Shown here: piece after piece, positions 4,409-24,325 of the stretch
How positions within the stretch are numbered: the stretch's first letter is position 1
Layout: each line of letters begins with the position of its first letter
DNA from: Sedimenticola sp.
GTDB lineage: Bacteria; Pseudomonadota; Gammaproteobacteria; Chromatiales; Chromatiaceae
DNA length: 39,439 bases
Assembly: GCA_027008705.1 (NCBI GenBank)
Contig: JALVEB010000053.1
Location: 1-39,439, forward strand
Direction of reading: 5' to 3'
The notes under the pieces: generated by a model
The model's database searches: none
What the model was told of the DNA's origin: nothing
The model's input: the letters and a program-made list of their open reading frames with translations, nothing else
Made by a program: the position numbers and the translations under genes

Positions 4409-4431
4409 GACTACGGGAAGGATAGATATTA

Positions 4432-5451: not shown

Positions 5452-5484
5452 GACTGAATCGATATCGCCACGGGCAGTACGCGC

Positions 5485-7854: not shown

Positions 7855-8894
7855 TGCAGGCTGCCGAGCATCGATTCGTCGTACGCGGACAGTGGCTCGC
7901 CGGAGCGGATCCGCTCGACCAGGTCCGGGTTGGCGATGAAGGGGCGGCCCATGGCCACCAGATCCACGCGCCGGGCCTCGAGTTCCCGTTCGGCGGTTTC
8001 CGGGGTGTAGCCGCCACAGCCGATCAGCGTGCCACGGTAACGTTCGCGGACATAGTCGATCGGGCGACCGCCAAGGTAGTCGTAACGCTGCTGCCCGTCG
8101 AATGCGGCGACGTGCACATAGGCCAGTTCCCGCGTATTCAGCTGTTCCAGCAGATAGTCGAATGTTTCCTCATCTCCCGGGCTGTATTCAAGATGGATAT
8201 AGGCTTGCGGGGACAGGCGGATGGCCACCCGCCGGGGGTCGATCGCCGCGCTCAAGCGGTCGAGCACCTCGAGGGCGAAACGGGCGCGGTTGGCCGCGGT
8301 TCCGCCATAGGCGTCGGTGCGCCGATTGGTCTGTTGATGCAGAAACTGGTCCACCAGATAGCCGTTGGCCGCGTGCAGTTCGACGCCATCAAAACCCGCT
8401 TCGGCGGCATTGCGCGCGGCCTTCTCGTAGCGCGTCAGGACTCGTTCGATATCCGCCGCTTCCATCGCCCGCGGTTCCTCATAGGAGAGGTTTTGCGCGC
8501 GGGGCAGGGGGCCGGTCATGCCCACCGCGCTGGGCGCCATCGGTCGGGTTCCGGTATAGTGGCTGTGGGCCATGCGTCCGGTATGCCATAGCTGGCAGAA
8601 GATCCGGCCGCCGGCCTTGTGCACCGCATCGGTCACCTGGGTCCAGGCGCGGACCTGAGCGTCGTCATAGATCCCCGGCGTGCGCGGGTAACCCTGGCCT
8701 TCCGCTTCGATCAAGGTGGCCTCGGTGACGATCAGACCGGCCCCGGCGCGCGCCTGATAATAAGCCACGGAATCGGCCGTCGGCGCGAGATCCTGGTCCG
8801 CGAAACAACGGGTCATCGGGGCCATCACCAGACGATTTTCGAGGCGTAGTCCGTCCGCGACGCTCCAGTTGGAAAACAACGTGGGGAAGGCCAC
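7851..8894 (-). CDS. Old Yellow Enzyme family alkene reductase (NemA-like)
   Basis: FMN-dependent oxidoreductase of 347 residues. Family marks are NRLVMAPMTRCFAD at the N-terminus, QLWHTGRMAH, the substrate-binding HAAN followed by the catalytic-Tyr segment GYLVDQFLHQQTNRRTDAYG, and a C-terminal phosphate loop ending VAMGRPFIANPDLV. Such enzymes reduce activated C=C bonds or nitro groups using NAD(P)H, often during electrophile detoxification. The start is GTG at 8894-8892, with AGGA 8 bases upstream lying in the end of the preceding small gene. The divergent LysR gene is the likely regulator, as is frequent for nemA-like reductases. Confidence 0.93.
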   Translation of the reverse strand: MAFPTLFSNWSVADGLRLENRLVMAPMTRCFADQDLAPTADSVAYYQARAGAGLIVTEATLIEAEGQGYPRTPGIYDDAQVRAWTQVTDAVHKAGGRIFCQLWHTGRMAHSHYTGTRPMAPSAVGMTGPLPRAQNLSYEEPRAMEAADIERVLTRYEKAARNAAEAGFDGVELHAANGYLVDQFLHQQTNRRTDAYGGTAANRARFALEVLDRLSAAIDPRRVAIRLSPQAYIHLEYSPGDEETFDYLLEQLNTRELAYVHVAAFDGQQRYDYLGGRPIDYVRERYRGTLIGCGGYTPETAERELEARRVDLVAMGRPFIANPDLVERIRSGEPLSAYDESMLGSLQ

Positions 8895-8898
8895 TGGC

Positions 8899-9099
8899 TC
8901 ATTCCTCGCGAAAGATCTTCCGGGCGATGATCAGGCCGGGGCAGATGCCCACCGCCGCGGCGAACAGGGTGAATGCCGGCACTACATACAGAAACCAGTG
9001 GACCTTGTCGAAACCTGTCAGCCAGATACCGATCAGAATGACCATTGCGGTGTTGAAGAAAAAGAATCGCATGGCCTTGCTTGCTTTCGCTATTGCCAT
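8899..9099 (-). CDS. Small two-helix inner-membrane protein
   Basis: Protein of 66 residues with two predicted membrane helices (about 12-29 and 34-57) and a basic C-terminal tail. A Cys-Pro pair (ICPG) begins the last part of helix 2. I do not recognise a named family; it is loosely like small YgaP-type or DUF2892 membrane proteins. A clear AGGAG precedes the ATG with a 7-base spacer. It is the first gene of the unit with the alkene reductase (4-base gap) and the methyltransferase, transcribed away from the LysR gene. Confidence 0.75.
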   Translation of the reverse strand: MAIAKASKAMRFFFFNTAMVILIGIWLTGFDKVHWFLYVVPAFTLFAAAVGICPGLIIARKIFREE

Positions 9100-9155
9100 T
9101 TTCCGCTCCTGTTGAATTGCTGTTGATTTGGGAAGGTGGGAGCAGTGTAGGTGTG

Positions 9156-9170
9156 GTTGTTTTCAACAAC
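9156..9170. promoter_or_regulatory. Candidate LysR operator, palindrome 1
   Basis: Perfect inverted repeat GTTGTT-TTC-AACAAC in the 125-bp gap between the divergent small membrane protein gene and the LysR gene. Location and symmetry suit a regulator-binding site or a target overlapping a promoter. It is not an exact T-N11-A box, so assignment to this LysR protein is inference. Confidence 0.4.
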
Positions 9171-9194
9171 AACGGTGTATTTTGTTATTGTTTG

Positions 9195-9212
9195 GGTAAC
9201 ATAAAAGTTACC
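9195..9212. promoter_or_regulatory. Candidate LysR operator, palindrome 2
   Basis: Inverted repeat GGTAAC-ATAAAA-GTTACC, ending 12 bases upstream of the LysR start codon, in the AT-rich part of the divergent promoter region. Paired with the palindrome at 9156-9170 it could give autoregulation of the LysR gene and control of the reductase unit. Confidence 0.45.
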
Positions 9213-9224
9213 AATCCAGGATTG

Positions 9225-10112
9225 ATGAGCGATATCAAGCGTCGCGTGGTGTTCGTCCAAGTCGTCGAGGCCGGAAGTTTCTCCGCCGCGGCCAAGCGTC
9301 TCGGGATCGCGCGCTCGGCGGTCAGCCGGCATATCGCGGCGCTCGAGGCCGAGTATGGCGTACGCCTGCTGAACCGCACCACGCGCCGTCTCGGCCTGAC
9401 CGACGCGGGTCGGATCTTCCACGACAGCAGCGTCCGGATTCTGGCCGAAAGCGAAGCCGCGTCGCGCTGCATCCAACAGTTGCGTGAGCGGCCGACCGGC
9501 ACGCTGAAGGTAGCGGGTCCGACCAGCTTCGCCCGTCAACTCGCGGCCTTGGTGAACGAGTTCAGTAAACTCCACGAGGCCTTGCGCATCGAGCTGCAAC
9601 TCGACGACCGGGTGGTGGACATGGTGGAAGAAGGCATCGACATCAGCATCCGCATCGGCTGGCTCGAGGATTCCCGCCTGATCGCCCGTCGCCTTTGTGA
9701 GGCGCCGCGCATCCTGTGTGCGTCACCGGCGTATCTCGATGCCCATGGAAGGCCGGAAAAACCGGCCCAGCTGACGGAACATGAATGCCTCATCTTCACC
9801 CTGTTGCCAACCCCGCATCAATGGCGCTTTTCGCGTCATAAACGATGCGAAACCGTCTCGGTACGCGGTCGGCTGTCGACCAACAGCGCGATTGCCATGC
9901 ATCGTATGGTGTTGGGCGGAGCGGGCATCGCGCCGTTGTCCCGTTTTCTGATCGAGAAGGATCTCGAGGCCGGGCGGCTGGAGCACTTGTTGCCGGAGTA
10001 CGACTGCGGCAGCGCCGGTATCTACGCGGTCTATCAGGACCGGCGCTATGAGCAGCCCAAGATTCGCCTTTTCATCGACTTCGCGCGCGAGCGGATTCGA
10101 CAGATGTTGTGA
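9225..10112 (+). CDS. LysR-family transcriptional regulator
   Basis: Regulator of 295 residues from the ATG at 9225. The frame stays open upstream, but that extension does not look like a LysR N-terminus. A winged helix-turn-helix fills about residues 1-60 (FVQVVEAGSFSAAAKRLGIA, then SRHIAALE), followed by a two-lobed LysR substrate-binding domain (about 90-290). The sequence resembles the CrgA/DsdC-like group that controls divergent quinone or aldehyde reductases. It is divergent from the membrane protein-alkene reductase-methyltransferase unit, which it probably regulates; the effector is unknown. A strong terminator lies at 10217-10261. Confidence 0.92.
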   Translation: MSDIKRRVVFVQVVEAGSFSAAAKRLGIARSAVSRHIAALEAEYGVRLLNRTTRRLGLTDAGRIFHDSSVRILAESEAASRCIQQLRERPTGTLKVAGPTSFARQLAALVNEFSKLHEALRIELQLDDRVVDMVEEGIDISIRIGWLEDSRLIARRLCEAPRILCASPAYLDAHGRPEKPAQLTEHECLIFTLLPTPHQWRFSRHKRCETVSVRGRLSTNSAIAMHRMVLGGAGIAPLSRFLIEKDLEAGRLEHLLPEYDCGSAGIYAVYQDRRYEQPKIRLFIDFARERIRQML

Positions 10113-10147
10113 GTTTTCCTGAACGTCTGGATCGTTCCGTGTGACCG

Positions 10148-10161
10148 CTCGGACTTCCGAG
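10148..10161. repeat. Short perfect palindrome
   Basis: CTCGGA-CT-TCCGAG lies 36 bases after the LysR stop. It could be a minor hairpin in the 3' untranslated region. No other role is visible. Confidence 0.3.
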
Positions 10162-10216
10162 GTGTCATGGCTCTTGGCGCGGGTGACCGGCTGCCTCCAT
10201 GAGACCCTGAAGCCGC

Positions 10217-10261
10217 CCTCGAGGCAGGCTCCGCGGCGGCATCCCTGCCTTCGAGGTTTTT
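10217..10261 (+). terminator. Rho-independent terminator after the LysR gene
   Basis: CCTCGAGGCAGG (10217-10228) pairs with CCTGCCTTCGAGG (10244-10256), leaving one bulged base, and TTTTT follows at 10257-10261. The GC-rich 12-bp stem directly followed by a T-run is a classical intrinsic terminator. It lies 105 bases downstream of the LysR stop codon. Confidence 0.8.
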
Positions 10262-10344
10262 CGAGCCGACGCCACCCCCGCTCGATCGGTCGCTTGGGCG
10301 CTTAGATGACGTGCTCCGGGCCCTCGAGATGCCGGCCTTGACGC

Positions 10345-10554
10345 TTATCGCTTCCGATATTCCGGATCGGTCCAGCATTTCGGAAGGGGTTCGCCGGATG
10401 GGAAGGTCAGGCGTGCTTTGTCGAACATTTCCGGGTCGGGCAGGTCCTCGCCGATGTTGTAACGCCCGGGGATGGCTTTTTTGAACGGGTCGAAAAGATC
10501 CTGAAGCCCCAGTACCTCGACCAGATGGCCGTTTTCTTTGTCTTGCAGAAACAT
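10345..10554 (-). CDS. Small conserved-looking hypothetical protein
   Basis: Protein of 69 residues, acidic then basic, with no signal peptide or membrane helix. Phrases such as HLVEVLGLQDLFDPF, GRYNIGEDLPDP and FPSGEPLPKCWTDPEY look constrained, and I believe similar short proteins occur in other Gammaproteobacteria, but I cannot name a function. It is a single gene. AAGGGG lies upstream of the ATG, and its leader holds two mutually exclusive hairpins at 10589-10611, so translation or stability may be controlled. There is one cysteine, near the C-terminus. Confidence 0.65.
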   Translation of the reverse strand: MFLQDKENGHLVEVLGLQDLFDPFKKAIPGRYNIGEDLPDPEMFDKARLTFPSGEPLPKCWTDPEYRKR

Positions 10555-10588
10555 GGTGATTCCCCTTATTCAGCAATAACTAACACTC

Positions 10589-10611
10589 GTGACGCGGGGT
10601 GGCGTCACCCC
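10589..10611. promoter_or_regulatory. Two mutually exclusive hairpins upstream of the 69-residue gene
   Basis: GTGACGC (10589-10595) pairs perfectly with GCGTCAC (10602-10608). Alternatively GGGGTG (10596-10601) pairs with CACCCC (10606-10611). The two stems share bases, so only one can form. The site is 35-57 bases upstream of the minus-strand gene at 10345-10554. A protein operator of the same symmetry is equally possible. Confidence 0.4.
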
Positions 10612-10657
10612 AGATCATGAAAATCATCAATTTGGCCGTTTGCACATTTCCACCTTT

Positions 10658-10744
10658 GTAGGCCGGTTCAAGTACCGCGGAACCGGCTACGGCAGCGCCA
10701 CGCAATTGCGCCGCTGCCCGATCCGCTGCGCTTGATCGGGCCTA
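10658..10744. repeat. REP/BIME-like cluster of three hairpins
   Basis: Three consecutive inverted repeats: GTAGGCCGGTTC with GAACCGGCTAC (10658-10690, one bulge); GGCAGCG with CGCTGCC around the inner palindrome CGCAATTGCG (10691-10718); and GCCCGATC with GATCGGGC (10716-10741). The block begins GTAGGCC and ends GGCCTAC, so it is palindromic overall, as in REP-derived mosaic elements. It occupies most of the informative part of the 449-bp gap 10555-11003. Confidence 0.6.
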
Positions 10745-10807
10745 CGCCTTGCCTGGTGAATCTCATTTCCGCTGCTTGGCTGAGTGGTTACTGTATTTTC
10801 ACATTAA

Positions 10808-10821
10808 TTGACTCCAATCAA
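10808..10821. promoter_or_regulatory. Candidate FNR/DNR-family box upstream of the PilZ gene
   Basis: TTGAC-TCCA-ATCAA matches the FNR consensus TTGAT-N4-ATCAA at 9 of 10 positions. It is 183 bases upstream of the PilZ start and about 250 bases upstream of the divergent small gene. No convincing -10 is seen at the class II distance, so it may act at class I spacing or be fortuitous. Confidence 0.4.
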
Positions 10822-11003
10822 GAGATGGGGGCAAAGAGGCTCGGATTCAAGGTTATCCCTAATAGGAAGGGCGCGGGGATGTCTCCATACTCCCCATTTC
10901 CCGATCAAACAACGACAAAGCCCGCGTGCCCGATGTCCGGGCGCAGCCGGCGTGCCTCCCTTTCGCGGGGGGATCCACGGGACGATGTAGCAGGAGTCAC
11001 ACG
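10822..11003. other. Remainder of the intergenic gap before the PilZ gene
   Basis: Together with the hairpins and the box listed separately, this completes the 449-bp gap between the 69-residue gene and the PilZ gene. No convincing coding sequence is seen. Short frames here lack a ribosome site or plausible composition. The last part supplies the AGGAG (10992-10996) used by the PilZ gene. Confidence 0.5.
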
Positions 11004-11459
11004 ATGGATAAACGCAGCTACCCGAGAGTTTTTTGCAGTCTGCCGGTGGATATGAGTCTCCCCGGCCGCTCTTTCGTCGGCCATTACCGTACCGCCAACG
11101 TCAGTCGGCGCGGCTTTTTCGCCTACCATACGCCGCGCTGGGCGATCGGCACCCGTGTCGAGGTGTTGTTTCACTGTCCGGATGAGCCGATCCGGGTTCA
11201 TGCCAAGGTGACGCGCGTCGGCCGCAACGGCGCGGGTTTCGATTTCATCGATGTCGATTCGGGTGAGCAGCAGGCGTTGGAGCACTTGGTGTGTCCGGAA
11301 TGGCATGGTGATGATCTGCTGGCCGGTCAGCTGAAGCTGGCGCCCTATACCGAGACCAGCGATTTTCGCGGCTGGCTGCACCTGACCTCGTTGTTATGCA
11401 CGCATCCGCACATCGGCGGCGGCCTGGCGGGACAATCGACGCTGTCTGCGTCATCCTGA
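11004..11459 (+). CDS. PilZ-domain c-di-GMP-binding protein
   Basis: Protein of 151 residues starting at the ATG at 11004, which has AGGAG 7 bases upstream. The N-terminal PilZ motif RxxxR appears as RSYPR and the second motif as NVSRRG (the D/NxSxxG type), so c-di-GMP binding is likely. The PilZ barrel covers about residues 1-95. The C-terminal 50 residues have no recognised domain. Probably a cytosolic effector acting on motility or surface behaviour; the partner is not evident. A FleQ regulator and a diguanylate cyclase occur elsewhere in the window. Confidence 0.85.
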   Translation: MDKRSYPRVFCSLPVDMSLPGRSFVGHYRTANVSRRGFFAYHTPRWAIGTRVEVLFHCPDEPIRVHAKVTRVGRNGAGFDFIDVDSGEQQALEHLVCPEWHGDDLLAGQLKLAPYTETSDFRGWLHLTSLLCTHPHIGGGLAGQSTLSASS

Positions 11460-12643: not shown

Positions 12644-13135
12644 TCAGTCTTCGACCACTTCGACCTTTTCGATTACCACCGGCTCCACCGGTACATCCTG
12701 GTGTCCGGCCTTCATCGTCGTTTCCACGTCCTTGATCCGGTTGACGACATCCATGCCCTCGACCACCTTGCCGAACACGCAGTAGCCCCAGCCGTCCTGG
12801 CCGGGGTAATCGAGAAAGCCGTTGTCGGCGACATTGATGAAGAACTGCGCGGTGGCCGAATGGGGGTCGCTGGTGCGCGCCATCGCAATGGTGCCGGTCT
12901 CGTTGCCCAGGCCATTGGCGGCCTCGTTCTCGACCGGGGCGTTGGTGGCTTTCTGCGCCATGTCCGGCGTGAAGCCGCCGCCCTGGATCATGAAGTTCGG
13001 GATCACGCGGTGGAAGATGGTGCCGTCGTAGAAGCCCTCGTTGACATAATCGAGGAAGTTCGCGCAGGTTTTCGGCGCCTTTTCTTCATCGAGTTCGATC
13101 TTGATGTCTCCGAGATTGGTTTTCATTCGAATCAT
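12644..13135 (-). CDS. ppiB: Cytoplasmic cyclophilin-type prolyl isomerase PpiB
   Basis: Peptidyl-prolyl cis-trans isomerase of 163 residues with no signal peptide, so cytoplasmic. Cyclophilin motifs are intact: [35 protein letters not shown] and the C-terminal [17 protein letters not shown]. The catalytic Arg and Phe of these motifs are present. It lies between lpxH and an exported paralogue, and the pair reads as a tandem duplication with one copy keeping an export signal. Confidence 0.95.
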
Positions 13136-13166
13136 GGTTTTATCCAGTTATTTACGAAATTGATGC

Positions 13167-13739
13167 TTATTTCTTTTCCTCGATTCGGCGAACCGATTCG
13201 ATGAGGACCTCTTGTTCCGGCACATTGCGCATGCCCTGTTTCGTCGTGGTGTTGACGCCGGCGATCCTGTCGACCACGTCCATGCCGGAGACCACCTTGC
13301 CGAACACGGCATAGCCCCAACCGCGGAAGGATTTGTCACGATGGTTCAGAAAGTCGTTGTCGACCAGGTTGATGAAGAACTGTGCGGTGGCCGAGTTCGG
13401 ATCGCTGGTGCGCGCCATCGCGATGGTGCCGCGATCGTTCTTCAGTCCGTTGTCGGCCTCGTTGGGTACCGGGGCATGGGTCTGTTTGCGTTCCATCTCC
13501 GGCGTATAACCGCCGCCCTGGATCATGAAACCGTTGATCACGCGGTGGAAGATCGTGCCGTCATAGAAACCTTCGTCGACATACCGCAGGAAGTTCTTGA
13601 CCGTGGCCGGGGCCTTGCCTGGATATAATTCCAGCACGATATCGCCCAGGCTGGTCTTCATCCGTACCTGGACGGGATCGGCCAGCGCGCTGGTGGTGGC
13701 GATCGCGAACAATAGCAGGGAAAGCAGGAGGGTTCTCAT
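13167..13739 (-). CDS. ppiA: Periplasmic cyclophilin-type prolyl isomerase PpiA
   Basis: Cyclophilin of 190 residues with a Sec signal peptide (hydrophobic core [14 protein letters not shown], cleavage near ALA-D at residue 21), so periplasmic. Active-site motifs [15 protein letters not shown] and [18 protein letters not shown] are complete. It is very similar to its neighbour ppiB, 31 bases downstream, and is probably cotranscribed. E. coli PpiA is a general periplasmic prolyl isomerase without an essential role; the same is assumed here. The upstream sequence opens into the large palindromic region. Confidence 0.93.
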
Positions 13740-13784
13740 GATGTCGGGTTCTCCATGTGGCGAAAAGTATTCTGATTGTCACTG

Positions 13785-14106
13785 CTCACCCCTGCAACGC
13801 CACGCAGTCGCCGCGATTGGTCGTTTCTGGAGGAAACGTCGACGGCAAGGGCGCCGTCGCCGAGCCCGCAGGGAGGTATACTCGCCGCCCATGAATTTTC
13901 GGATTTTCGAGAGCGTTCCTCGCGCCCGTGGGCCAGGCGCGGAAGCGAGTCATAGCCCATTCTATGGCGAGTTTCCGCAACAACGCCCACGGGTGCGAGG
14001 GGCGGTCGCAGTGGCCGAAAAGTCATGGGCGACGAGTATATACTCGCCGTTTTCCGGAAGAAACAGTCAATCGCGGCGGTGCCCTTTGTCGTTGTCGGGG
14101 GGTGAG
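13785..14106. repeat. Large compound inverted repeat with TATACTC-type core (copy B)
   Basis: The outer arms run from CTCACCCC (13785-13792) to GGGGTGAG (14099-14106) and share blocks such as CAATCGCGGCG and AGAAAC in inverted orientation. Within them a core at 13877-14040 runs from TATACTC to GAGTATA and contains two facing copies of the unit also seen at 4432-4504 (CCCATGAATTTTCGG and CCCGTGGGC). The centre is itself palindromic: GCGGAA/TTCCGC and CATAG/CTATG about 13958. The left arm has an extra hairpin (13840-13859, CGACGGC/GCCGTCG). GAGTATATACTC at 14034-14045 suggests abutting units. Short open frames across it read repeat sequence and are not called as genes. Confidence 0.75.
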
Positions 14107-14263
14107 TCGTTACTTCTGACCATGATAGAGATTTACGGGTTCCGGGGGAAGCCGGCATCGATGAAGACCTGGGTGTCGAAGCCCGGTCCCGTACCGAGTG
14201 AAGTTGGAGAAGGGCTTGATCTGTCTCAATTCCCTGGATGCGACACTGGCGTATGCTCGCGCC
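14107..14263. other. Gap between the inverted repeat and the pentapeptide gene
   Basis: With the inverted repeat this makes up the 524-bp region without a supported gene. I see no convincing promoter or coding signal here. A GTG at 14198 opens the pentapeptide frame earlier, but the predicted signal peptide favours the start at 14264. Confidence 0.4.
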
Positions 14264-15016
14264 ATGTTTGTCCGCCTGCTTTCCCTGGGAATCGCCGCCT
14301 GTTCGCTGGCGTCGCCGGTCGCGGCCGCGCCGCGTGGTGACTGCGAACATCCGCTGCCGAATACTGACCTGCGTCATTGCTCATTCGCCGGCCGCCGGCT
14401 CGCCGGTGTCAATCTGCGCGGCGCGCGGCTCGACGGGGTGGATTTCTCCAATGCGCGGATGCCGGGCTGCGACCTGTCGGCGGCCAGTCTGCGCGAAGCC
14501 GATCTGAAATGGGCGCTGCTGCCCGATTGCGTGATCGTCGGCGCCGATCTCGATCATGCCGATCTTTTCCATGTCACATTCGACGGCGGGACGCTGGACC
14601 GCAGCCGTTTTGCCGGCGCCAACCTGTTCGGCGCGAATCTCAATGAGGTGAAGGCGCGCAAGGCGGATTTCAGCGGCGCTTATATGAAGGACATCGCGAT
14701 GGAAGAGAGCGATTTCTCGAACAGCCGCTTTGATCGCTCCTTCATGATGCGCGCGGTGTTGATCGGCAGCCGCTTGCATGGTGCCAGTCTGCGCCATGTG
14801 GTGTTGACCGGCGCGGCCTTCGAACAGGCCGATCTTACCGGGGCGGATTTCAGCCATGCGGTGCTCAATGGCGCCCATTTCAACGAGGCCGATCTGAGCG
14901 GCGCCCGTCTGAGCGGTGCCATCGTGACCAATGTCGTGCTCGATGGCGCGCGGCTCGAAGCGTTGGTCGACCCGCCCGAGGCGCTGTCGGGCGCTGATCA
15001 TGAGGAAAGCGAATGA
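14264..15016 (+). CDS. Exported pentapeptide-repeat protein
   Basis: Protein of 250 residues starting MFVRLLSLGIAACSLASPVA, a Sec signal peptide cleaved near AAA. The mature part is almost entirely A(D/N)LXX-type pentapeptide repeats, which fold as a right-handed quadrilateral beta-helix (for example GVNLRGARLDGVDFSNARM, ADLTGADFSHAVLNGAHFNE). Such proteins act as scaffolds or ligand mimics; no enzymatic motif is seen. Two cysteines near the N-terminus (CEH, RHC) and one in the repeats could form a disulfide or bind metal. The stop overlaps the next gene by 4 bases, and that gene overlaps the ZnuA-SCO fusion, so the three form a tight operon just upstream of nosZ. The ribosome site is weak. 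Confidence 0.85.
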   Translation: MFVRLLSLGIAACSLASPVAAAPRGDCEHPLPNTDLRHCSFAGRRLAGVNLRGARLDGVDFSNARMPGCDLSAASLREADLKWALLPDCVIVGADLDHADLFHVTFDGGTLDRSRFAGANLFGANLNEVKARKADFSGAYMKDIAMEESDFSNSRFDRSFMMRAVLIGSRLHGASLRHVVLTGAAFEQADLTGADFSHAVLNGAHFNEADLSGARLSGAIVTNVVLDGARLEALVDPPEALSGADHEESE

Positions 15017-15351
15017 AGATGAAGAGTTTGGTCTTGTTTCCGCTGCTGGTGCTCATGAGCGTCGGCGCGCGCGCCGAAAGCGATGCGCAATTCGCTGCGA
15101 TCGCGCGGCTTGCGGGTTTGAACGCGGTGGCTTTGCAGTGCCGTTTTCTCGACCAGACTCAGCGTATCAAGGCGGCGTTGGTCGAGCGCCTGCCGAAGAA
15201 GCGCTATCTTGGCGAGTACTTCGATGCCAAGACCAACATGGCCTATATGGATGCGCTCGCCCGCCACGCGGCTTGTCCGGAGAAGTCGCGTCTGGCGGCC
15301 GATATCGGTGCTGCGATCGCGGGCCTGAAAACCGCCTTTTCCGCGCCATGA
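15013..15351 (+). CDS. Small exported two-cysteine protein, function unknown
   Basis: Protein of 112 residues with a Sec signal peptide (core LVLFPLLVLMSVGARA, cleavage near residue 22). The mature 90 residues are predicted helical and hold two cysteines (ALQCRF and HAACPEK) that could form a periplasmic disulfide. No domain is recognised. It is the middle gene of the trio, overlapping the pentapeptide gene by 4 bases and the ZnuA-SCO fusion by 4 bases. This suggests stoichiometric production and a shared job, perhaps in periplasmic copper or redox handling. Confidence 0.8.
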   Translation: MKMKSLVLFPLLVLMSVGARAESDAQFAAIARLAGLNAVALQCRFLDQTQRIKAALVERLPKKRYLGEYFDAKTNMAYMDALARHAACPEKSRLAADIGAAIAGLKTAFSAP

Positions 15352-16781
15352 AACCTTGGTTCGCGCGCTTGGCGTTGGTGTTGGCGCTGCTTGCGCCGCT
15401 TGACGCGGCGGCGGCCGATGGCCTGCATGTGGTGGCGACGATCCGCCCGGTATATGCCTTTCTGCTCGGGCTGATGCGCGACGCCGACACCCCGGAGTTG
15501 CTGATCGATGGGGATCGCACGCCTTATGACTATCGGCTCGACGCGCGCGGCCGCCGATTGCTCGAACAGGCCGATCTGGTGGTTTGGGTCGGTCCGGAGT
15601 TGGAGACATCGCTGGCCACGCCGCTGGCGGCGTTGAAAAAAACCGGTGACGACGGCCCGCGGGTGGTCGAGCTGCTTGCCAGCCAGACATTGAAAATCCT
15701 GCCGTCGCGCGATCGCCCGGATGAGCGCGATCCGTTCTTTTGGCTCGATGACCGCAATGCCCTGATCCTGCTCGACGAGCTCACCGAATGGTTGGTGCGC
15801 ATCGATCCCCAGCGCGCGCATATCTACATCCGCAACCGGCGCCGGATGCGCAAGCCGCTGCGCCGCCTCGACCGGGTTTATGAGTACGGCTACCGTGGCC
15901 TGAAAGGGGCTCCGGGTGTCGCCTATTACGATACCTTGCAGTACTTCGAGCAAGCCTATGCGATGAAGCTGCTCGACCATGTCGGCGCCTCTCCACGGCA
16001 TCCCGGGAGTACCGCCGCGCTGTTGCGCGTGCGTGCCCGGCTGGCTTCCGGCGAGGCGCGTTGCCTGTTGCTGGAGCGCGGCATGCCGGCCCCCGGCCTC
16101 TCGGTGCTGACCGAGGGCCTGAAGGTTCATGTCGGCGAGCTCGACAGCCTCGGGCTCGGCATCGACCCGGGACCGGAGCTCTATCTGAAACTGATGCAAC
16201 ACAATACCGGGGTGATCCGGGAATGCCTCGGGAGCCGGGGCGGCAAGGCGGATGAGCTGCTCGATGCGGGCATCGACGAGGGCGATGCAGGCGATGGCAT
16301 CGGTGGCCGCTTCGTACTCACCGATCAGTTCGGCGACAGCCGCACCGAACAGGACTTCCTGGGGCACTATTCCCTGGTTTATTTCGGCTATACCCATTGT
16401 CCGGACGTTTGTCCGACCACTTTGCAGACGATGGCCAGCGCGTTGCGCCGGCTCGGCGACAAGGCGAAGCGGGTACAGCCGTACTTCATCAGCGTCGATC
16501 CGCAACGGGACTCACCGAGGACCCTGCGCGACTATGTCGCCTATTTCGACCCGCGTCTGATCGGCATGACCGGCACCCCGGCGATGCTGAAGCGCGTCGC
16601 CGCCGAGTTTCGCGTGCGCTTCCGCAAGGGCGAGGTCGATCCGGCGCACCCCGATCTGTACCTCGTCGATCATTCCGCAAGCCTCTATCTGATGGGGCCG
16701 GATGGACGTTTCATCACCAAGTTCGCCAATGGCATCATGCCGCGTGATCTGGCGCGGCGACTGGACGAGATCATTCCCTGA
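15348..16781 (+). CDS. Fusion of a ZnuA-like binding domain with a SCO1/SenC copper chaperone
   Basis: Exported protein of 477 residues. After a signal peptide ending near AAA-DG (residue 23), residues about 24-295 match the ZnuA/TroA metal-binding fold: VVATIRPVYAF, PYDYRLDARGRRLLEQADLV, then WVGPELE and ELDSLGLGI. Residues about 305-477 are a SCO1/SenC thioredoxin-like domain with the copper site C351-PDV-C355 (YFGYTHCPDVCPTTLQTM) and distal H442 (LVDHSASLYLMGPDG). Two ZnuA metal-ligand histidines appear replaced by Y60 and F130, so the N-terminal domain may no longer bind zinc. SCO proteins deliver copper to CuA centres, and NosZ, encoded 249 bases downstream, has one. Role in N2O reductase maturation is inferred. 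Confidence 0.88.
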   Translation: MKPWFARLALVLALLAPLDAAAADGLHVVATIRPVYAFLLGLMRDADTPELLIDGDRTPYDYRLDARGRRLLEQADLVVWVGPELETSLATPLAALKKTGDDGPRVVELLASQTLKILPSRDRPDERDPFFWLDDRNALILLDELTEWLVRIDPQRAHIYIRNRRRMRKPLRRLDRVYEYGYRGLKGAPGVAYYDTLQYFEQAYAMKLLDHVGASPRHPGSTAALLRVRARLASGEARCLLLERGMPAPGLSVLTEGLKVHVGELDSLGLGIDPGPELYLKLMQHNTGVIRECLGSRGGKADELLDAGIDEGDAGDGIGGRFVLTDQFGDSRTEQDFLGHYSLVYFGYTHCPDVCPTTLQTMASALRRLGDKAKRVQPYFISVDPQRDSPRTLRDYVAYFDPRLIGMTGTPAMLKRVAAEFRVRFRKGEVDPAHPDLYLVDHSASLYLMGPDGRFITKFANGIMPRDLARRLDEIIP

Positions 16782-16926: not shown

Positions 16927-16940
16927 TTGACCAAGATCAA
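16927..16940 (+). promoter_or_regulatory. FNR/DNR-type box upstream of nosZ
   Basis: TTGAC-CAAG-ATCAA matches the FNR/DNR consensus at 9 of 10 positions, centred 96 bases upstream of the nosZ ATG. A possible -10 hexamer TAGGCT at 16965-16970 places transcription start near 16976, about 42 bases from the centre, as expected for class II activation. It predicts induction under oxygen limitation or nitrogen oxides. Confidence 0.65.
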
Positions 16941-17029: not shown

Positions 17030-19324
17030 ATGAAGTCAAGATTGACCCAGTTATGCAACGCCATGATCGGGGTGGGGCTCAGCCTCGGTCTGGCGACCAG
17101 CGCTGGGGCCGCGCAATCACTGCAAGATGTGATGAAGGCGCGTGGTCTCACCGAGAAAGATCTGCTGGCCGCCGCCAAGACCTATACGCCGACCGGTGGT
17201 CGCGACGAGTATCTCGCGTTCAGCTCGGGCGGCCAGAGTGGCCAGATCTTCGTCTACGGCATCCCGTCGATGCGTATCCTGAAATACATCGGGGTGTTCA
17301 CGCCGGAGCCGTGGCAGGGCTATGGCTTCGATGACGAATCCAAGGCCGTGCTCGCCGAGGGGCGTATCGATGGCAAGGACATTCTCTACGGTGATACCCA
17401 CCACCCGGCCCTGTCGGAAGAGAATGGCGACTATGATGGCAAGTATCTGTTCATCAACGACAAGGCCAACCCACGCATCGCGGTCATCGATCTTCGCGAC
17501 TTCGAGACCAAGCAGATCGTCGTCAATCCGTTCTTCAAATCGGAGCACGGTGGCACCTTCGTCACGCCGAACACCGAATACGTCATGGAGGCCACCCAGT
17601 ACGCGGCGCCGTACGCGGACGATTTCGTCCCGCTGAGCAAGTTCAACGAGGTCTACCGCGGCGGCCTCGCCTACTGGAAGTTCGACAAGAAGGAAGGGCG
17701 CATCAAGCCCGAGCAGTCCTTCGTCTTCGAGCTGCCTCCGTACAGCCAGGACCTCTCCGATGCCGGCAAGGGGCCGTCGTATGGCTGGGGATTCACCAAC
17801 TCGTTCTGTACCGAGCGCTACGTCGGTGGCATCGAGCGCGGTCGTCCGCCGTTCGAGGCCGGTTGTTCACAGAAGGACACCGACTTCCTGCACATCACCA
17901 ACTGGAAGAAGGCCGCCGAGCTGGTCAAGGCCGGCAAGGTCAAGAAGCAGAAGGGCATGTACCTGATCCCGATCAAGCAAGCCGTCAAGGAAGGCCTGCT
18001 CTATCTGATTCCAGAGCCGAAGAGCCCGCATGGCGTCGATGTCACGCCGGACGGCACCAAGATCATCGTCAGCGGCAAGCTCGATACCCACGTCTCGGTG
18101 TTCAGCTTCAAGAAGATCATGGATGCGATCCAGCACAAGAAGTTCGTTGGCCGGGATCCTTACGGGATTCCAATCCTGAGCATGAAGGACACCTTGCATA
18201 CCCAGGTCGCGCTCGGCCTCGGCCCGCTGCATACGCAGATGGATGCCAAGCCCTGCATCGCCTATACCTCGTTGTATGTCGATTCGCAGATCGCGAAGTG
18301 GGACTACTGTAAGGGCAAGGTGCTCGACAAGGTCAACATCCACTACAACGTCGGTCACCTGATGGCGATGGAAGGCGATACCGCGCACCCGGACGGCAAG
18401 TATCTGGTGTCGTTGAACAAGCTCGCGATCGACCGCTTCAATCCGGTCGGCCCGTTGCACCCGCAGAACCACCAGTTGATCGACATCAGCGGCGACAAGA
18501 TGCAGCTGCTGTACGATATGCCGGTGCCTCTCGGCGAGCCGCACTATGTGGTTGCGATCAAGGCCGACAAGCTGAAGCCAGAGATCCGCTATCGCTCCGG
18601 TTGGAACAGTCGAGCCAACAGTCGTTCGAAGTGGCGTACCCGCGCCGGACGCGAGAAGATCGTGCGTAACGGCAACCACATCGATGTCTACGGCACGGTG
18701 ATCCGTTCCCATATCACGCCGGAGATCATCGAGGCCAAGGTCGGCGACACCGTCTCGCTGCACCTGACCAACCTCGAGCGTGCCGAGGATGAGACCCACG
18801 GCTTCGCGCTGCGCGGTCAGAACGTCAACCTGTCGATCGAGCCGGGCAAGACGGTTTCGGCGACCTTCAAGGCCGATAAGGCGGGCGTCTTCCCGTACTA
18901 CTGCACCGAGTTCTGCTCGGCGCTGCACCTCGAGATGCAGGGCTACCTGCTGGTTGCGCCGAAGAACTACCAGGCCGCCGGCGTCAGCATGAGCGAAGGG
19001 CAGACCTACACCAAGGCCGACTACGAGAAGCAGGTCAAGACCAACCTCGAGACCCAGGCGGTCATCGACTCGGTCGTCGCCTTCATCACCAGTCGCAACT
19101 ACAAGGACTTCAAGCCCGTGGTCGCGTTGGTGGAGGATGCGACCGACCAGCTCGGTTTTGCCGACGAGGCGAAGAAGAAGGCCGAGGAATACGCCAAGAA
19201 GGGCGATTACCACAACGCGACTCTATGGGCCGGTCAGTGGTGGCAGTACCAGGTCAAAACAGCCGACCTGGGTCTGCGCGCCAAGACCTACCTGGAAGAG
19301 CACGGCGCCAAGGTCGTCAAGTAA
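17030..19324 (+). CDS. nosZ: Clade II (Sec-dependent) nitrous oxide reductase NosZ
   Basis: Periplasmic copper enzyme reducing N2O to N2. The signal peptide has no twin arginine and ends near AGA-AQ, and the cluster lacks nosR, both clade II traits. A seven-bladed propeller carries the CuZ histidines H124, H125, H173, H334, H401, H443 and H505 (GDTHHPALSEENG, SEHGGTFV, GPLHTQMD, EPHYVV). The cupredoxin domain holds CuA ligands H590 and C625-x3-C629-x3-H633-x2-M636 (CTEFCSALHLEM). At 764 residues it is longer than usual: about 110 Lys- and Glu-rich residues follow CuA. This tail has no CxxCH, unlike the C-terminal cytochrome domain of epsilonproteobacterial NosZ. It begins the nos operon. Confidence 0.97.
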   Translation: MKSRLTQLCNAMIGVGLSLGLATSAGAAQSLQDVMKARGLTEKDLLAAAKTYTPTGGRDEYLAFSSGGQSGQIFVYGIPSMRILKYIGVFTPEPWQGYGFDDESKAVLAEGRIDGKDILYGDTHHPALSEENGDYDGKYLFINDKANPRIAVIDLRDFETKQIVVNPFFKSEHGGTFVTPNTEYVMEATQYAAPYADDFVPLSKFNEVYRGGLAYWKFDKKEGRIKPEQSFVFELPPYSQDLSDAGKGPSYGWGFTNSFCTERYVGGIERGRPPFEAGCSQKDTDFLHITNWKKAAELVKAGKVKKQKGMYLIPIKQAVKEGLLYLIPEPKSPHGVDVTPDGTKIIVSGKLDTHVSVFSFKKIMDAIQHKKFVGRDPYGIPILSMKDTLHTQVALGLGPLHTQMDAKPCIAYTSLYVDSQIAKWDYCKGKVLDKVNIHYNVGHLMAMEGDTAHPDGKYLVSLNKLAIDRFNPVGPLHPQNHQLIDISGDKMQLLYDMPVPLGEPHYVVAIKADKLKPEIRYRSGWNSRANSRSKWRTRAGREKIVRNGNHIDVYGTVIRSHITPEIIEAKVGDTVSLHLTNLERAEDETHGFALRGQNVNLSIEPGKTVSATFKADKAGVFPYYCTEFCSALHLEMQGYLLVAPKNYQAAGVSMSEGQTYTKADYEKQVKTNLETQAVIDSVVAFITSRNYKDFKPVVALVEDATDQLGFADEAKKKAEEYAKKGDYHNATLWAGQWWQYQVKTADLGLRAKTYLEEHGAKVVK

Positions 19325-19436: not shown

Positions 19437-19760
19437 ATGAATCACGGTAAGAAATCGATGATGGTCGCTTTGGCGATTGCCGCTGCCAGCCTGGCCGGCG
19501 GCGCGTTCGCCGGCGACGGCGCGGCGCTGTACAAGACCAAGACCTGCTGGTCCTGCCACGGCAAGGACGCGAAGACCCCGATCATGCCGATCTATCCGAA
19601 ACTCGCCGGGCAGAATGCCGACTATCTGTTCAACCAGATGAAGGACATCAAGAGCGGCGCGCGAAACAACGGTCAGACCGCGGCGATGAAGGGCGTGATG
19701 GGCCTGGTCAACGAGGAAGAGATGCGTGCGATCGCCGATTGGCTGGCGACCCAGAAATAA
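19437..19760 (+). CDS. nosC1: Monohaem periplasmic cytochrome c (NosC1-like)
   Basis: Cytochrome c of 107 residues with a Sec signal peptide cleaved near AFA-GD (residue 25). One haem site, CWSCH, lies at residues 37-41; M84 or M88 is a candidate distal ligand. The ending EEMRAIADWLATQK is the usual class I C-terminal helix. It probably donates electrons to the CuA site of NosZ, either replacing the fused haem domain of some clade II enzymes or linking to the second cytochrome. GAGAGG lies 8 bases upstream of the ATG. Confidence 0.9.
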   Translation: MNHGKKSMMVALAIAAASLAGGAFAGDGAALYKTKTCWSCHGKDAKTPIMPIYPKLAGQNADYLFNQMKDIKSGARNNGQTAAMKGVMGLVNEEEMRAIADWLATQK

Positions 19761-19812: not shown

Positions 19813-19826
19813 TTGATGATAATCAA
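19813..19826 (+). promoter_or_regulatory. Perfect FNR/DNR box before the second cytochrome gene
   Basis: TTGAT-GATA-ATCAA is a full match to the FNR consensus, 122 bases upstream of the dihaem cytochrome gene. It implies an internal promoter driving the second cytochrome and possibly nosB to nosY, separate from the nosZ promoter. No good -10 is evident at class II distance. Confidence 0.65.
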
Positions 19827-19941
19827 TGAGTTTCCTCGACGAGGCATGCGAGACTGACGTCCGATGCGGAGACGTCGCGCGGCGCTCCGTTCCCCAAAAA
19901 CACAGATCGCCCCGGACACAGTGGGCAGGAGAAACAGAACG

Positions 19942-20682
19942 ATGAACTGGGTACTGAAAACCACGACACTCGCAATCGGCCTGGCGGTGGGCGGCTCGGC
20001 GCTGGCCTGGAACGAGAGCGGCGGCGAGAAGGACGAGGCGCTGACCCTGAAGCCCGATCTGGAGCGTGGCATGGAAGTCTTCGAGGTCTGCTCCGCCTGC
20101 CACGGCACCGAGGGTTGGGGGCGCAAGGACGGCACCTTTCCGCAGATCGCCGGTCAGCATCGTACCGTGCTGATCAAGCAACTGGCCGACATCCGCGCGA
20201 AGAACCGCGACAACCCGACGATGTACCCCTTTGCGCTCGATGACCAGATCGCCGGCGCGGCCGGTTACCGTCCGGGGCAGATCAAGCCGGCGCAACTGGT
20301 CGCCGATGTCACCGCCTATATCGCCAAGTTGCCAATGAACCCGGACAACGGCAAGGGCCACTGGGCCGAGGGTACGCCGGAATACGAACAGGGCAAGAAG
20401 CTGTTCAAAGACAACTGCGTCAAGTGTCATGGCGAGCACGGCGAGGGGAATGCCGAGAAGTTCTACCCGAAGATCCAGGGGCAACATTACGAGTACATGC
20501 TGCGCCAGTTCGAATGGATCGAGGCCGGCAAGCGGCGCAACGCCAACCCGGACATGGTCAAGCAGATCAAGGATTTCACGCCGAAAGACCAGAAGATGGT
20601 CATCAACTATGTCTCGCGGATCCCGGTGCCGAAGAAAGACCTGGCGCCGTCGAAAGACTGGATCAATCCGGACTTCGACTGA
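19942..20682 (+). CDS. nosC2: Dihaem periplasmic cytochrome c (NosC2-like)
   Basis: Cytochrome of 246 residues from the ATG at 19942, with AGGAG upstream. The Sec signal peptide ends near ALA-WN. Two class I domains carry CSACH (residues 50-54) and CVKCH (159-163), each followed by an IAGQH/IQGQH-type phrase (PQIAGQH, PKIQGQH), as in cytochrome c4-like electron carriers. With the monohaem protein it probably passes electrons from the quinol pool to NosZ. It has its own upstream FNR box. Confidence 0.9.
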   Translation: MNWVLKTTTLAIGLAVGGSALAWNESGGEKDEALTLKPDLERGMEVFEVCSACHGTEGWGRKDGTFPQIAGQHRTVLIKQLADIRAKNRDNPTMYPFALDDQIAGAAGYRPGQIKPAQLVADVTAYIAKLPMNPDNGKGHWAEGTPEYEQGKKLFKDNCVKCHGEHGEGNAEKFYPKIQGQHYEYMLRQFEWIEAGKRRNANPDMVKQIKDFTPKDQKMVINYVSRIPVPKKDLAPSKDWINPDFD

Positions 20683-20758: not shown

Positions 20759-20865
20759 CGGGCGCGCCCGGGCTGGGTCCCGTTGCGCGTTCCATGCTCC
20801 ACACTCCATCTCGCCCGGCTTCGCGGTACCGGCGTGGGAACCAATCATAACGGGTGAATTCGATT

Positions 20866-22056
20866 ATGAACGCAACATCCGATACAAAGAAACAGACATT
20901 GATCGTCTCGGTTCTGGTGTTGATCGCGCTTGGGCTGCTCTACCTGATCTATGTGCTGCCGACTTGGTGGGTCTCGCTGACCGCGCCGAACTATCCGAAA
21001 GAAGCCTTTCCCGACGGCGTGCGCATCGAGTTCCATATGAACGGGGTGTTCAACGGCTGCAAGAAGGTCGCGAAGAAAGAGATCTCCGAATCGGTCGCGC
21101 TCGATTGCGTGCACGAGATGGACACCATCAATCACTATGTCGGCATGTATCCGATCGCCGCCGGCGGCCCGATCGAACGGGGTTTCTCGCAGTTCCTGGT
21201 CGCGTTTCTTGGCGTCATGTTGCTTGGTTTCATGTGCACCCGGCCGAAGATCCGCATGGCGATTCTCACGCTCGGTTTCGCCGGCATCGCGGTGTGGATG
21301 TATCTGACCCTGTATGGCGAGAACGGTTTCGAGCTCGAGAACGAAGGCTATGTCAAAGCGCTGGTCACCTCGCTGGATCAGGAAGCCAGCGGCGAGGCCA
21401 AGGAGGGAAGCAGCGGCGGCGGGATCGTCGAGATGCTGCGTGAATCGCTGGAGAAATCCGGTGTCGAGATCAAGATGCCGGAAGAGTTGAAGAAAGAAGA
21501 AGAGGCCAAGGCCCGCATGAGCGAGAAGGAGAAGCTGATCGAGCAGCTGCGTCAGACCTACGAGCGCGACCTGCGCAAGGGGCTGGTTTCCGAGCCGTGG
21601 AACGGCAGCACCTTTCAGGTCATGGCCTGGCATTACGGCAAGAGCCTGGGGCGATACTTCAACAACCAGAAAGAGATCCGGCCGATGGTCAAGAAGCTGA
21701 AGATCGCGATCAATGTGGTGTTCTGGGGCCTGATCGCGGCGATGGCGTTGCTGATCTGGGGCGCGCGCCGCAATGGTGGCCTGCTGTACTGGCTGTTGGT
21801 GCTGGTGCCGATGGCGCTGCCGGTGTTTTTCGTCATCGACTACTCGGCCTGGCTGTGGTGGTACGGCCATACCCTGAACTCGATGGGCGCCTTTTCGGTC
21901 AAGCCGTTCATGCCGACGGTCTTCGGCGATGGCAAGGTGGCCCAGTTCGCGACCCATTCCTATCCGGACAAGGGCTTCTTCGTGATGCTGGCGTTCTCGG
22001 TGGTGTTGGCGTTCGCGGCGTTGATCCGGCGCAAGCAGTTTCGCGCTTCGTCCTGA
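20866..22056 (+). CDS. nosB: NosB-type membrane protein of clade II nos clusters
   Basis: Integral membrane protein of 396 residues found next to nosZ in clade II clusters. Helices are visible at about 12-30, 100-120 and 125-140 and in a C-terminal group (about 280-390), with a Lys/Glu-rich, probably coiled-coil periplasmic or cytosolic segment (about 195-235) between them. Two cysteines (NGCKK, LDCVHE) lie in the first loop. The Wolinella homologue is required for N2O respiration, but its biochemical role is unclear. Start: the ATG at 20866 is preferred over the GTG at 20854; the ribosome site is weak for both. Confidence 0.85.
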   Translation: MNATSDTKKQTLIVSVLVLIALGLLYLIYVLPTWWVSLTAPNYPKEAFPDGVRIEFHMNGVFNGCKKVAKKEISESVALDCVHEMDTINHYVGMYPIAAGGPIERGFSQFLVAFLGVMLLGFMCTRPKIRMAILTLGFAGIAVWMYLTLYGENGFELENEGYVKALVTSLDQEASGEAKEGSSGGGIVEMLRESLEKSGVEIKMPEELKKEEEAKARMSEKEKLIEQLRQTYERDLRKGLVSEPWNGSTFQVMAWHYGKSLGRYFNNQKEIRPMVKKLKIAINVVFWGLIAAMALLIWGARRNGGLLYWLLVLVPMALPVFFVIDYSAWLWWYGHTLNSMGAFSVKPFMPTVFGDGKVAQFATHSYPDKGFFVMLAFSVVLAFAALIRRKQFRASS

Positions 22057-22075: not shown

Positions 22076-23440
22076 ATGAACCCTTGCCCGCGCAGGCGCC
22101 GGTTGCGCGTTCCGTGGCTGGCCTGCCTGTTGATTGCGACCTGGTGTCGGGCTGCCGAGATGCCGTCGCTGCAAGCGCGTATCGATGCCGCCGCCGATAA
22201 CGCGGTGCTGGTACTGAAGCCGGGCGTCTATCGCGGCCCTGTGCTGATCGACAAGCCGTTGACGCTGGACGGCCAGGGCAAGGCGACGATCGACGCCGGT
22301 GGCAAGGGATCGGTGGTATCGATCGACAGCGATGGCGTGACCCTGAAGGGACTGCGTCTGACGAACTCCGGCGAATCCTACAACGACATCGATTCCGGCG
22401 TGCAGGTGCGGGGCGACTTCAACGTACTCAAGGATCTGGTGATCGACAACTGCCTGTTCGGCATCGACCTGGGGCAGTCCAACAACAACATCATCAAGCG
22501 TAACCGGATCTCGTCGAAGCCGTTCGATCTGGGCCTGCGTGGCGATGCGATCCGGCTATGGTACAGCTTTCGCAACAAGGTCACCGATAACACCATCCGC
22601 GACGCGCGCGACACCGTGGTGTGGTATTCCGCGGATAACCTGATCGCCCGCAATGATGCGCGTGGCGGGCGTTATTCGTTGCACTTCATGTATTCGAAGC
22701 ACAACGACGTGATCCACAACCATTATGAGAACAACGCGGTCGGGATCTTCCTGATGTACAGCGACGGCGTGGTGATCCGCGACAACACCATCATCAACGC
22801 CAATGGCCCGACCGGCATGGGCATCGGCTTCAAGGAGAGCTCGAATGTCGAGATCGCGAACAACGATCTGCTCTACAACGCGGTGGGCATCTACCTGGAT
22901 CTGTCGCCCTATCAGCCGGATACCACCAATCGCATCCATGACAACGTGATCGCCTTCAGCGGCATCGGCATCTCGTTTCTCAGCGATTGGCCGGGGAACC
23001 AGATCACCGGGAACGATTTCAAGGGCAATATCACCCAGGTGGCGGTGTCGGGCAACGGCAAGAGTGTCAACCGCAATACCTGGCATGGCAACTACTGGGA
23101 CGACTATCAAGGTTTCGATCTGAATCATGACGGCATCGGCGATCGTCCGTACCAGCTCTACAGCTATGCCGACCGGATCTGGATGGATGTGCCGCCGGCG
23201 CGTTTCTTCAAGGGCACGCCGATGCTCGAAACGCTGGATTTCCTGGAGCGGCTGGCGCCGTTCACGAAACCGGCGATGCTGCTGCAAGACGACAACCCCC
23301 TGCTCGAGCCGCGCTTCACCACGCGCGCGCAACGAGAACGCATCGAGGAACAAAACGATGAAACGGCAAATGACAACACGGCGGATCGTAGTGGTGAATC
23401 CGACGCCTACCGCAAACTGCGGCAATCTTTGGGGCGCTGA
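22076..23440 (+). CDS. nosD: NosD periplasmic copper-centre maturation protein
   Basis: Protein of 454 residues with a Sec signal peptide cleaved near RAA. A right-handed parallel beta-helix of NosD/CASH repeats fills most of the mature part (NDIDSGVQVRGDFNVLKDLV, HNDVIHNHYENNAVGIFLMY). NosD works with the NosF-NosY transporter and NosL to assemble the CuZ cluster of NosZ. The conserved NGKSVNRNTWHGNYWDDY segment is near residue 330-345. The C-terminus is acidic and looks disordered. It follows nosB by 19 bases and precedes nosG by 3. Confidence 0.95.
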   Translation: MNPCPRRRRLRVPWLACLLIATWCRAAEMPSLQARIDAAADNAVLVLKPGVYRGPVLIDKPLTLDGQGKATIDAGGKGSVVSIDSDGVTLKGLRLTNSGESYNDIDSGVQVRGDFNVLKDLVIDNCLFGIDLGQSNNNIIKRNRISSKPFDLGLRGDAIRLWYSFRNKVTDNTIRDARDTVVWYSADNLIARNDARGGRYSLHFMYSKHNDVIHNHYENNAVGIFLMYSDGVVIRDNTIINANGPTGMGIGFKESSNVEIANNDLLYNAVGIYLDLSPYQPDTTNRIHDNVIAFSGIGISFLSDWPGNQITGNDFKGNITQVAVSGNGKSVNRNTWHGNYWDDYQGFDLNHDGIGDRPYQLYSYADRIWMDVPPARFFKGTPMLETLDFLERLAPFTKPAMLLQDDNPLLEPRFTTRAQRERIEEQNDETANDNTADRSGESDAYRKLRQSLGR

Positions 23441-23443
23441 ACC

Positions 23444-24325
23444 ATGAGTGCTCCGAGCAAGCCGCGTAAACACCCGGTCTCACCGAAACGCCGCGAGCAG
23501 AACCGGCGCGAGTTTCTGCGCACCTCGGCTTTCGCGCTCGGCATCGCCAGCGTTTCGCTGCTCGGTTTCGTGCCGGTCGTCGAGGGGCGTTCGGCGCGCC
23601 TGCGCCCACCCGGCGCGATCAAAAAACGCCTCGACGAGCACGAATTTCTGGCCGCCTGCATCAAATGCGGGCAGTGCGTGCAGGTCTGTCCGGTCGAAGC
23701 GATCAAGCTTGGCGACATCGACGATGGCTTCGGTGTGGGCGTGCCCTTCATCGAGCCACGCGAGCAGGCCTGTGATTTCTCCTGCGATGGCCTGCAATGC
23801 GTGCTCGCCTGTCCCACCGGGGCGCTCACCCACCATCTGGATTTTCCCGCCGATGCGCGCATGGGGTTTGCGCGGCTGGCGCGGCCCAAGGCCTGCCTGG
23901 CGGTGCAGGGCAAGGGCTTCAAGGGGGTGGCGCGCGGGCCCGGCTTCAAGGGTATTCTGCGCTACAGCGAGGTCGATCGCTGGAATCCGATCCCGGTCGC
24001 CGAGCATCCCTATGATCTTGAGATCTGCGACCTGTGCGTGCGTCAGTGCCCGATCGAGCAACGCATCATCCAGTGTGCCGAGGAGGACGAGAAGCGCAAA
24101 AAGCAGGGGCCGCAAGCCCTGGTCGCCAAGCGCATCGGTCACGAATGCCCGCCGAAGCACGCGATCACGCTGGAGCCGATCGACTCGGGCGATGGCAAGC
24201 GGCGCATGATGCCGGTGGTACAGGATGGCTGCGTCGGTTGCGGCGTGTGCGAGATGATCTGTCCCGTCGAAAGCGCGGCGATCGTCGTCGATATCGACAA
24301 AGACGCCGACTCGATCGGAGGTTGA
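23444..24325 (+). CDS. nosG: NosG (NapG-like) polyferredoxin with Tat signal
   Basis: Iron-sulfur protein of 293 residues. The N-terminal motif NRREFLRTSAFALG is a twin-arginine signal, so it is folded and exported, probably membrane-anchored. Four cysteine groups could hold four [4Fe-4S] clusters: CIKCGQCVQVCP, CDFSCDGLQCVLACP, CDLCVRQCP with a distal Cys, and CVGCGVCEMICP. In clade II clusters NosG and NosH are thought to form a quinol-oxidising module passing electrons to NosZ or its maturation factors, by analogy with NapGH. It is 1 base from nosH. Confidence 0.93.
   Translation: MSAPSKPRKHPVSPKRREQNRREFLRTSAFALGIASVSLLGFVPVVEGRSARLRPPGAIKKRLDEHEFLAACIKCGQCVQVCPVEAIKLGDIDDGFGVGVPFIEPREQACDFSCDGLQCVLACPTGALTHHLDFPADARMGFARLARPKACLAVQGKGFKGVARGPGFKGILRYSEVDRWNPIPVAEHPYDLEICDLCVRQCPIEQRIIQCAEEDEKRKKQGPQALVAKRIGHECPPKHAITLEPIDSGDGKRRMMPVVQDGCVGCGVCEMICPVESAAIVVDIDKDADSIGG

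Follow-up and report, generated by a model that had tools for sequence, protein, structure and literature searches.

The DNA analysed here (the window) is a 39,439-nucleotide stretch from Sedimenticola sp. that carries a complete nos cluster of the type nosZ-cytochromes-nosB-D-G-H-F-L-Y, preceded on the same strand by three genes (the trio; Table 1). The first encodes a pentapeptide-repeat protein (PPR), the second a small protein with two cysteines (Cys2) and the third a ZnuA-like domain fused to a SCO1/SenC domain (ZnuA-SCO). Neighbouring trio genes overlap by 4 bp and 248 bases separate the end of the fusion gene from the start of nosZ, in agreement with an earlier note on this DNA, which had placed three genes with 4-base overlaps just upstream of nosZ. 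That all three products are exported, as the note had also proposed, is supported by their N-termini, which by eye are hydrophobic and signal-like, and its description of the proteins themselves is borne out by the Pfam domains and by the presence of two cysteines in the mature part of Cys2. The N-terminus of the clade II NosZ was judged by eye to be without a twin-arginine motif. The nos operon ends after nosY, which is the other site at which the trio is found in relatives. Divergent from the trio are two adjoining cyclophilin-type genes, one of which has a Pfam match and a signal-like start.

Table 1. Features of the window, in positions of the whole stretch; nosG, nosH, nosF, nosL and nosY are ORFs whose order is conserved in relatives and whose names derive from sequence and position, not from HMM matches
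Feature	Position	Strand	Description	Basis
Cyclophilin-type gene	12644-13135	-	adjoins the next gene
Cyclophilin-type gene	13167-13739	-
FNR/Dnr-type box	14216..14229	+	TTGATCTGTCTCAA, 1 mismatch; 34 bp upstream of PPR start codon	pattern scan
PPR	14264..15016	+	exported pentapeptide-repeat protein, 250 aa	Pentapeptide PF00805, E 2e-45; 20-orthologue alignment
Cys2	15013..15351	+	small exported protein, 112 aa, cysteines C43 and C88	AF2; 52-sequence alignment
ZnuA-SCO	15348..16781	+	477 residues, ZnuA-like domain, linker, SCO1/SenC domain	Pfam, alignments, AF2, fold comparison
FNR/Dnr-type box	16927..16940	+	TTGACCAAGATCAA, perfect; upstream of nosZ	pattern scan
nosZ	17030..19324	+	clade II (Sec-dependent)	TIGR04246, 881 bits vs cut-off 625
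Cytochrome gene	19437..19760	+	c-type cytochrome of nos cluster	PF00034
Cytochrome gene	19864..20682	+	c-type cytochrome of nos cluster, two cytochrome c stretches	PF00034 twice
nosB-type gene	20854..22056	+	membrane protein	position between nos cytochromes and nosD; conserved in relatives; no HMM match
nosD	22076..23440	+		TIGR04247, 406 bits
nosG	23444-24325	+		sequence, position
nosH	24327-25304	+		sequence, position
nosF	about 25298-26188	+		sequence, position
nosL	26064-26675	+		sequence, position
nosY	about 26669-27499	+	operon end at about 27499	sequence, position
Further FNR/Dnr-type box	10808-10821		perfect
Further FNR/Dnr-type box	19813-19826		perfect
Further FNR/Dnr-type box	31245-31258		perfect

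Boxes of the FNR/Dnr type precede both the trio and nosZ. The perfect box before nosZ has counterparts in all 24 of 24 relatives, at about 100 bp from nosZ on its upstream side, and a box is found upstream of the trio in 21 of 65 regions of relatives (2.3 expected), including loci unlinked to nos. The box before the trio in the window lies unusually near the PPR start codon, which leaves its role at this site uncertain. These boxes are consistent with control as part of denitrification, for which FNR boxes are not specific. With up to one mismatch allowed, the window contains 10 matches to the pattern against 2 expected.

Gene neighbourhood and association with nosZ

The same gene order of the trio set recurs in dozens of genomes and is therefore more than a product of chance. 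Gene neighbourhoods were compared across 77 named loci, and the search against nos clusters that the earlier note had called for found the trio genes linked to them in three arrangements. Cys2 is followed directly by ZnuA-SCO at nearly every locus, and this pair lies upstream of nosZ at 24 loci, after nosY at nine and divergent from nosZ at one; three different placements in nos clusters are hard to reconcile with a single inherited chance arrangement. Many pair loci are not near nos. When genomes are counted, 30 (that of the window included) carry Cys2 on the same strand as nosZ and about 1.7-2.0 kb upstream of it. Chance adjacency of the trio and nosZ was ruled out by the recurrent linkage and co-occurrence in relatives.

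The genes do not travel together equally closely. Cys2 was seen in 73 of the 77 loci that have the ZnuA-like domain, and two of the other four start at a contig edge. In some genomes the SCO gene that follows Cys2 lacks the ZnuA-like domain (loci L127, L133, L135 and L149), which identifies Cys2 and SCO as the core. By sequence, the PPR genes of the different loci are true orthologues, with motifs (GDC...HC.F.GR, DLFH, ME and RAV) conserved across 20 orthologues from both the upstream-of-nosZ and the after-nosY contexts; a PPR orthologue is found with the pair at 19 of the 77 loci, about a quarter. The three-gene module of the earlier note therefore stands as regards its Cys2-SCO core, and has to be loosened for the ZnuA-like domain, which is sometimes missing, and for PPR, which is present in only part of the loci. 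At L110, in a symbiont of a tubeworm, a frameshift or a sequencing error divides the fusion into two frames, one ZnuA-like and one SCO (about 10807-10891), and the alphaproteobacterium Terasakiella brassicae has a stand-alone relative of the ZnuA-like domain (L118:9929-10846) with neither SCO nor Cys2 nearby. In Ca. Sedimenticola endophacoides (L091), near-identical ORFs of 89 aa are repeated and a 342-aa ORF occurs twice (3240-6743 and 13093-14747), in the space that separates nosZ from its cytochrome and farther along, with the appearance of a multiplied mobile element.

Co-occurrence was assessed in a family sample of 210 Sedimenticolaceae genomes, among them Ca. Thiodiazotropha and tubeworm symbionts, which the window genome brings to 211. 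Cys2 was found in 83 of these genomes, clade II nosZ in 98 and both in 73 (Fisher p 6e-24, with genomes counted as independent despite their shared ancestry). The earlier note had named a set found mostly in genomes without nosZ as an outcome that would speak against it; the family sample shows the reverse. Among the ten genomes with Cys2 and without nosZ, six still have nosD, so that nosZ is probably missing from the assembly only, and three more are only 72-82% complete. The sole well-assembled exception is the gill symbiont of Solemya velum, whose 99% complete genome yielded neither nosZ nor nosD. Here an intact-looking Cys2 and ZnuA-SCO pair (L114, about 8721-11362) lies beside an orphan nosY and is flanked by a transposase-like ORF, which means either that a nos cluster is decaying here or that the pair has a second function; the module may thus serve something else too.

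The association extends beyond the family. In a class sample of 369 evenly drawn genomes (Cys2 called at E below 1e-20), Cys2 was found in 11, all of which have nosZ, of clade II in ten. A phylum sample added three Cys2 genomes, each with clade II nosZ, and in one genome of this sample Cys2-SCO directly follows nosY. Outside Sedimenticolaceae, 12 of the 12 Cys2 genomes found have nosZ. In the other direction, Cys2 is absent from 25 nosZ-containing family genomes and from about half of the clade II nosZ genomes of the class sample, which shows that NosZ does not generally depend on the module.

SCO proteins take part in the assembly of CuA sites, and the role of their family in oxidases raises the possibility that the trio is a cytochrome oxidase assembly factor, for CuA of aa3 or CuB of cbb3 enzymes, that lies near nosZ by accident. 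FNR boxes are found before cbb3 genes as well, and within the family Cys2 is positively associated with CoxB (p 2e-5). This association is far weaker than that with nosZ, however, and CoxB was not detected in 31 genomes that have both Cys2 and nosZ, several of them single-contig or near-complete. Nor was CoxB matched within 10 kb at any of the 77 named loci, and the other adverse outcome anticipated by the earlier note, a trio next to cytochrome oxidase genes, is thus not what the neighbourhoods contain. The window genome encodes five COX1-family proteins, only one of which, itself without an NCBIfam name, has matches at the named loci (three of 77). A separate canonical SCO gene adjoining PCuAC, the usual oxidase pair, lies elsewhere in the same genome, away from the trio. 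A general role in oxidase assembly was judged unlikely on the strength of the genomes lacking CoxB and its absence from the loci, and the oxidase explanation as a whole is very improbable. The dedicated link to nosZ put forward in the earlier note is upheld by the co-occurrence, the three arrangements, the anaerobic-type promoter boxes, the independence from CoxB and the separate SCO-PCuAC pair. Across bacteria, the three-gene set occurs almost only in nosZ genomes, and its probable role is that of a dedicated helper in loading NosZ with copper; that NosZ is the enzyme served appears very likely.

Trio proteins and a possible route to CuA

In the fusion protein, ZnuA (PF01297) was matched at residues 28-293 (E 6e-31, 108 bits vs a cut-off of 29) and SCO1-SenC (PF02630) at residues 319-455 (E 9e-49, 165 bits vs a cut-off of 22.8), and both folds are recovered in the AF2 model. 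The ZnuA-like part superimposes on Citrobacter ZnuA (7rcj) over 262 residues at 2.2 Å (Z 28.9), and the SCO domain on the solved SCO1 structure 6n5u over 158 residues at 1.7 Å (Z 25.9). The SCO ligands, a CxxxC motif (C351 and C355 in the window protein) and H442, are invariant in 56 sequences and are also kept in Bradyrhizobium Blr1131/ScoI, which the domain matches at 137 bits. Trio SCO domains therefore share domain, ligands and fold with SCO1/SenC chaperones such as Blr1131/ScoI and human SCO1, and differ from them in their fusion behind a ZnuA-like domain and their linkage to nosZ. In a SCO tree, canonical SCOs of the same families are split from the trio SCOs with 98/97 support on the canonical side, the root and the monophyly of the fused side being unsettled.

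The ZnuA-like domain shares sequence, fold and a conserved cysteine pair with ZnuA and other cluster A-I metal solute-binding proteins, but the histidine triad that binds zinc is replaced, usually by Tyr or Phe (Y/F/Y in the window protein), and is kept in three of 56 fusion members as opposed to five of five canonical ZnuA controls. Residues specific to the family are invariant elsewhere in the domain (an EYGYR motif and DTxQYFEQ). The three fusions that keep all histidines (L071, L077 and L084) belong to the Thiodiazotropha group, where close relatives have Tyr/Phe, and may reflect the ancestral state or a reversion. Since the zinc histidines are lost in most members, the domain is best described as a pseudo-solute-binding domain. 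The ZnuA-SCO1 fusion of the earlier note accordingly holds in its domains and fold, and does not hold as a normal zinc- or copper-binding ZnuA. ABC permease or ATPase genes are absent from the trio, and in the window nosF is the ABC gene closest to it; ordinary zinc uptake was rejected on the basis of the lost triad and the lack of an ABC partner.

Cys2 is predicted with high confidence (pLDDT 96) to form a four-helix bundle. Both of its cysteines are among eight residues invariant in a 52-sequence alignment and, from the order of the helices in the model, are expected to share one end of the bundle. No Pfam family was matched up to E 1, the best NCBIfam match was at chance level (E 0.1), and there was no sequence match to known copper chaperone families of the PCuAC or Cox17 type. 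Searches of the PDB by sequence and fold returned weak helical-bundle matches only, none of which surpassed E 3 or Z 5.

Taken together with the linkage to nosZ, these properties suggest that the trio matures clade II NosZ in the periplasm as a module reserved for this enzyme, most likely at its CuA site, a reading to which we assign a probability of about 0.6. CuA is the somewhat favoured target, by analogy with the background of SCO proteins and given the genomic linkage. We infer both the copper cargo and the step taken by each protein, and the individual roles are guesses. The SCO domain, with its intact CxxxC and histidine, would bind a single copper and pass it into CuA or, alternatively, would hold both CuA cysteines in reduced form, ready for insertion. 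Cys2, with its two invariant cysteines and its place beside SCO even where the ZnuA-like domain is missing, may be a thiol or copper partner of SCO, as PCuAC or Cox17 is when oxidases are assembled. With its bilobed fold kept and its zinc site lost, the ZnuA-like domain could serve as a docking or ligand-recognition unit tethered to SCO instead of as a transporter subunit, and the PPR beta-helix might be an optional scaffold. A more specific version, held tentatively and at slightly less than even odds, is that Cys2 and the pseudo-ZnuA-SCO protein with its aromatic pocket replace PCuAC in a CuA assembly dedicated to NosZ, so that the CuA path of clade II enzymes would be separate from that of the oxidase.

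Some of the same features could be read without any copper being carried, as a system for thiol-disulfide exchange that maintains the cysteines of NosZ in reduced form or shields NosZ copper from sulfide. The idea of protection from sulfide comes from the hosts, most of which are sulfur-oxidising bacteria (mainly Sedimenticola, Thiodiazotropha and symbionts of tubeworms and clams), and the thioredoxin-like fold and CxxxC of SCO, like the invariant cysteine pair of Cys2 with its predicted position at one end of the bundle, would suit such a system. The metal-binding histidine of SCO is equally invariant, however, as in copper-binding SCO proteins, making this explanation quite improbable.

Supply or buffering of copper in the periplasm for all of the nos system, CuA and CuZ alike, would accommodate the two gene positions, upstream of nosZ as well as after nosY next to nosL and nosFY, and copper borne by SCO could have several targets. 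The precedent for SCO is CuA, however, and the metal ligands are missing from the ZnuA-like domain in most members. Moreover, NosL, NosD, NosF and NosY are all present here and already serve CuZ (PMC6530538, PMC7558416). This broader supply role is therefore unlikely, if less so than a purely thiol-based one.

Relation to known systems

NosL and NosDFY share with the trio a role in copper maturation of NosZ and a place in the same gene clusters; they are unrelated proteins and serve CuZ, as described for NosL (PMC6530538). A close functional counterpart is found in Paracoccus denitrificans, where senC2 and pcuC mutants reduced less N2O at low copper (PMC7558416, reviewing Sullivan et al. 2013). 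A SCO protein and its partners (senC2, pcuC, Pden_4445) influence N2O reduction there when copper is low, probably via CuA, but the partner is PCuAC, the NosZ belongs to clade I and no ZnuA fusion is reported (PMC7558416). In Bacillus azotoformans a senC gene upstream of nosC3 was proposed to insert CuA copper; like the trio, this SCO gene lies inside the nos region, but it is a single SCO, and ZnuA fusion, Cys2 and PPR are not described there (PMC3475470). With a SCO gene beside nos already noted (PMC3475470) and SCO action on NosZ known, this kind of system is not itself new. Open-licence papers on nosZ with SCO1 and pentapeptide proteins, or on ZnuA with SCO fusions, were not found to describe the combination, and relative to that literature the nos-dedicated arrangement, the fused pseudo-ZnuA, Cys2, PPR and the tight link to clade II nosZ appear to be new.

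Through this association, Cys2 and the degenerate ZnuA domain, two families for which no function has been described, are marked as denitrification genes. Among known enzymes, NosZ is the main sink for the greenhouse gas N2O, and the building of CuZ is partly known; how CuA is loaded, above all in clade II enzymes, is still a question, which this gene set addresses. The set tracks nosZ closely and occurs in culturable Sedimenticola strains, in which the question is directly testable. Strains of Sedimenticola selenatireducens, among them DSM 17993 with L111 and L121, carry two copies of the Cys2 and ZnuA-SCO pair (L111/L121 and L086/L087).
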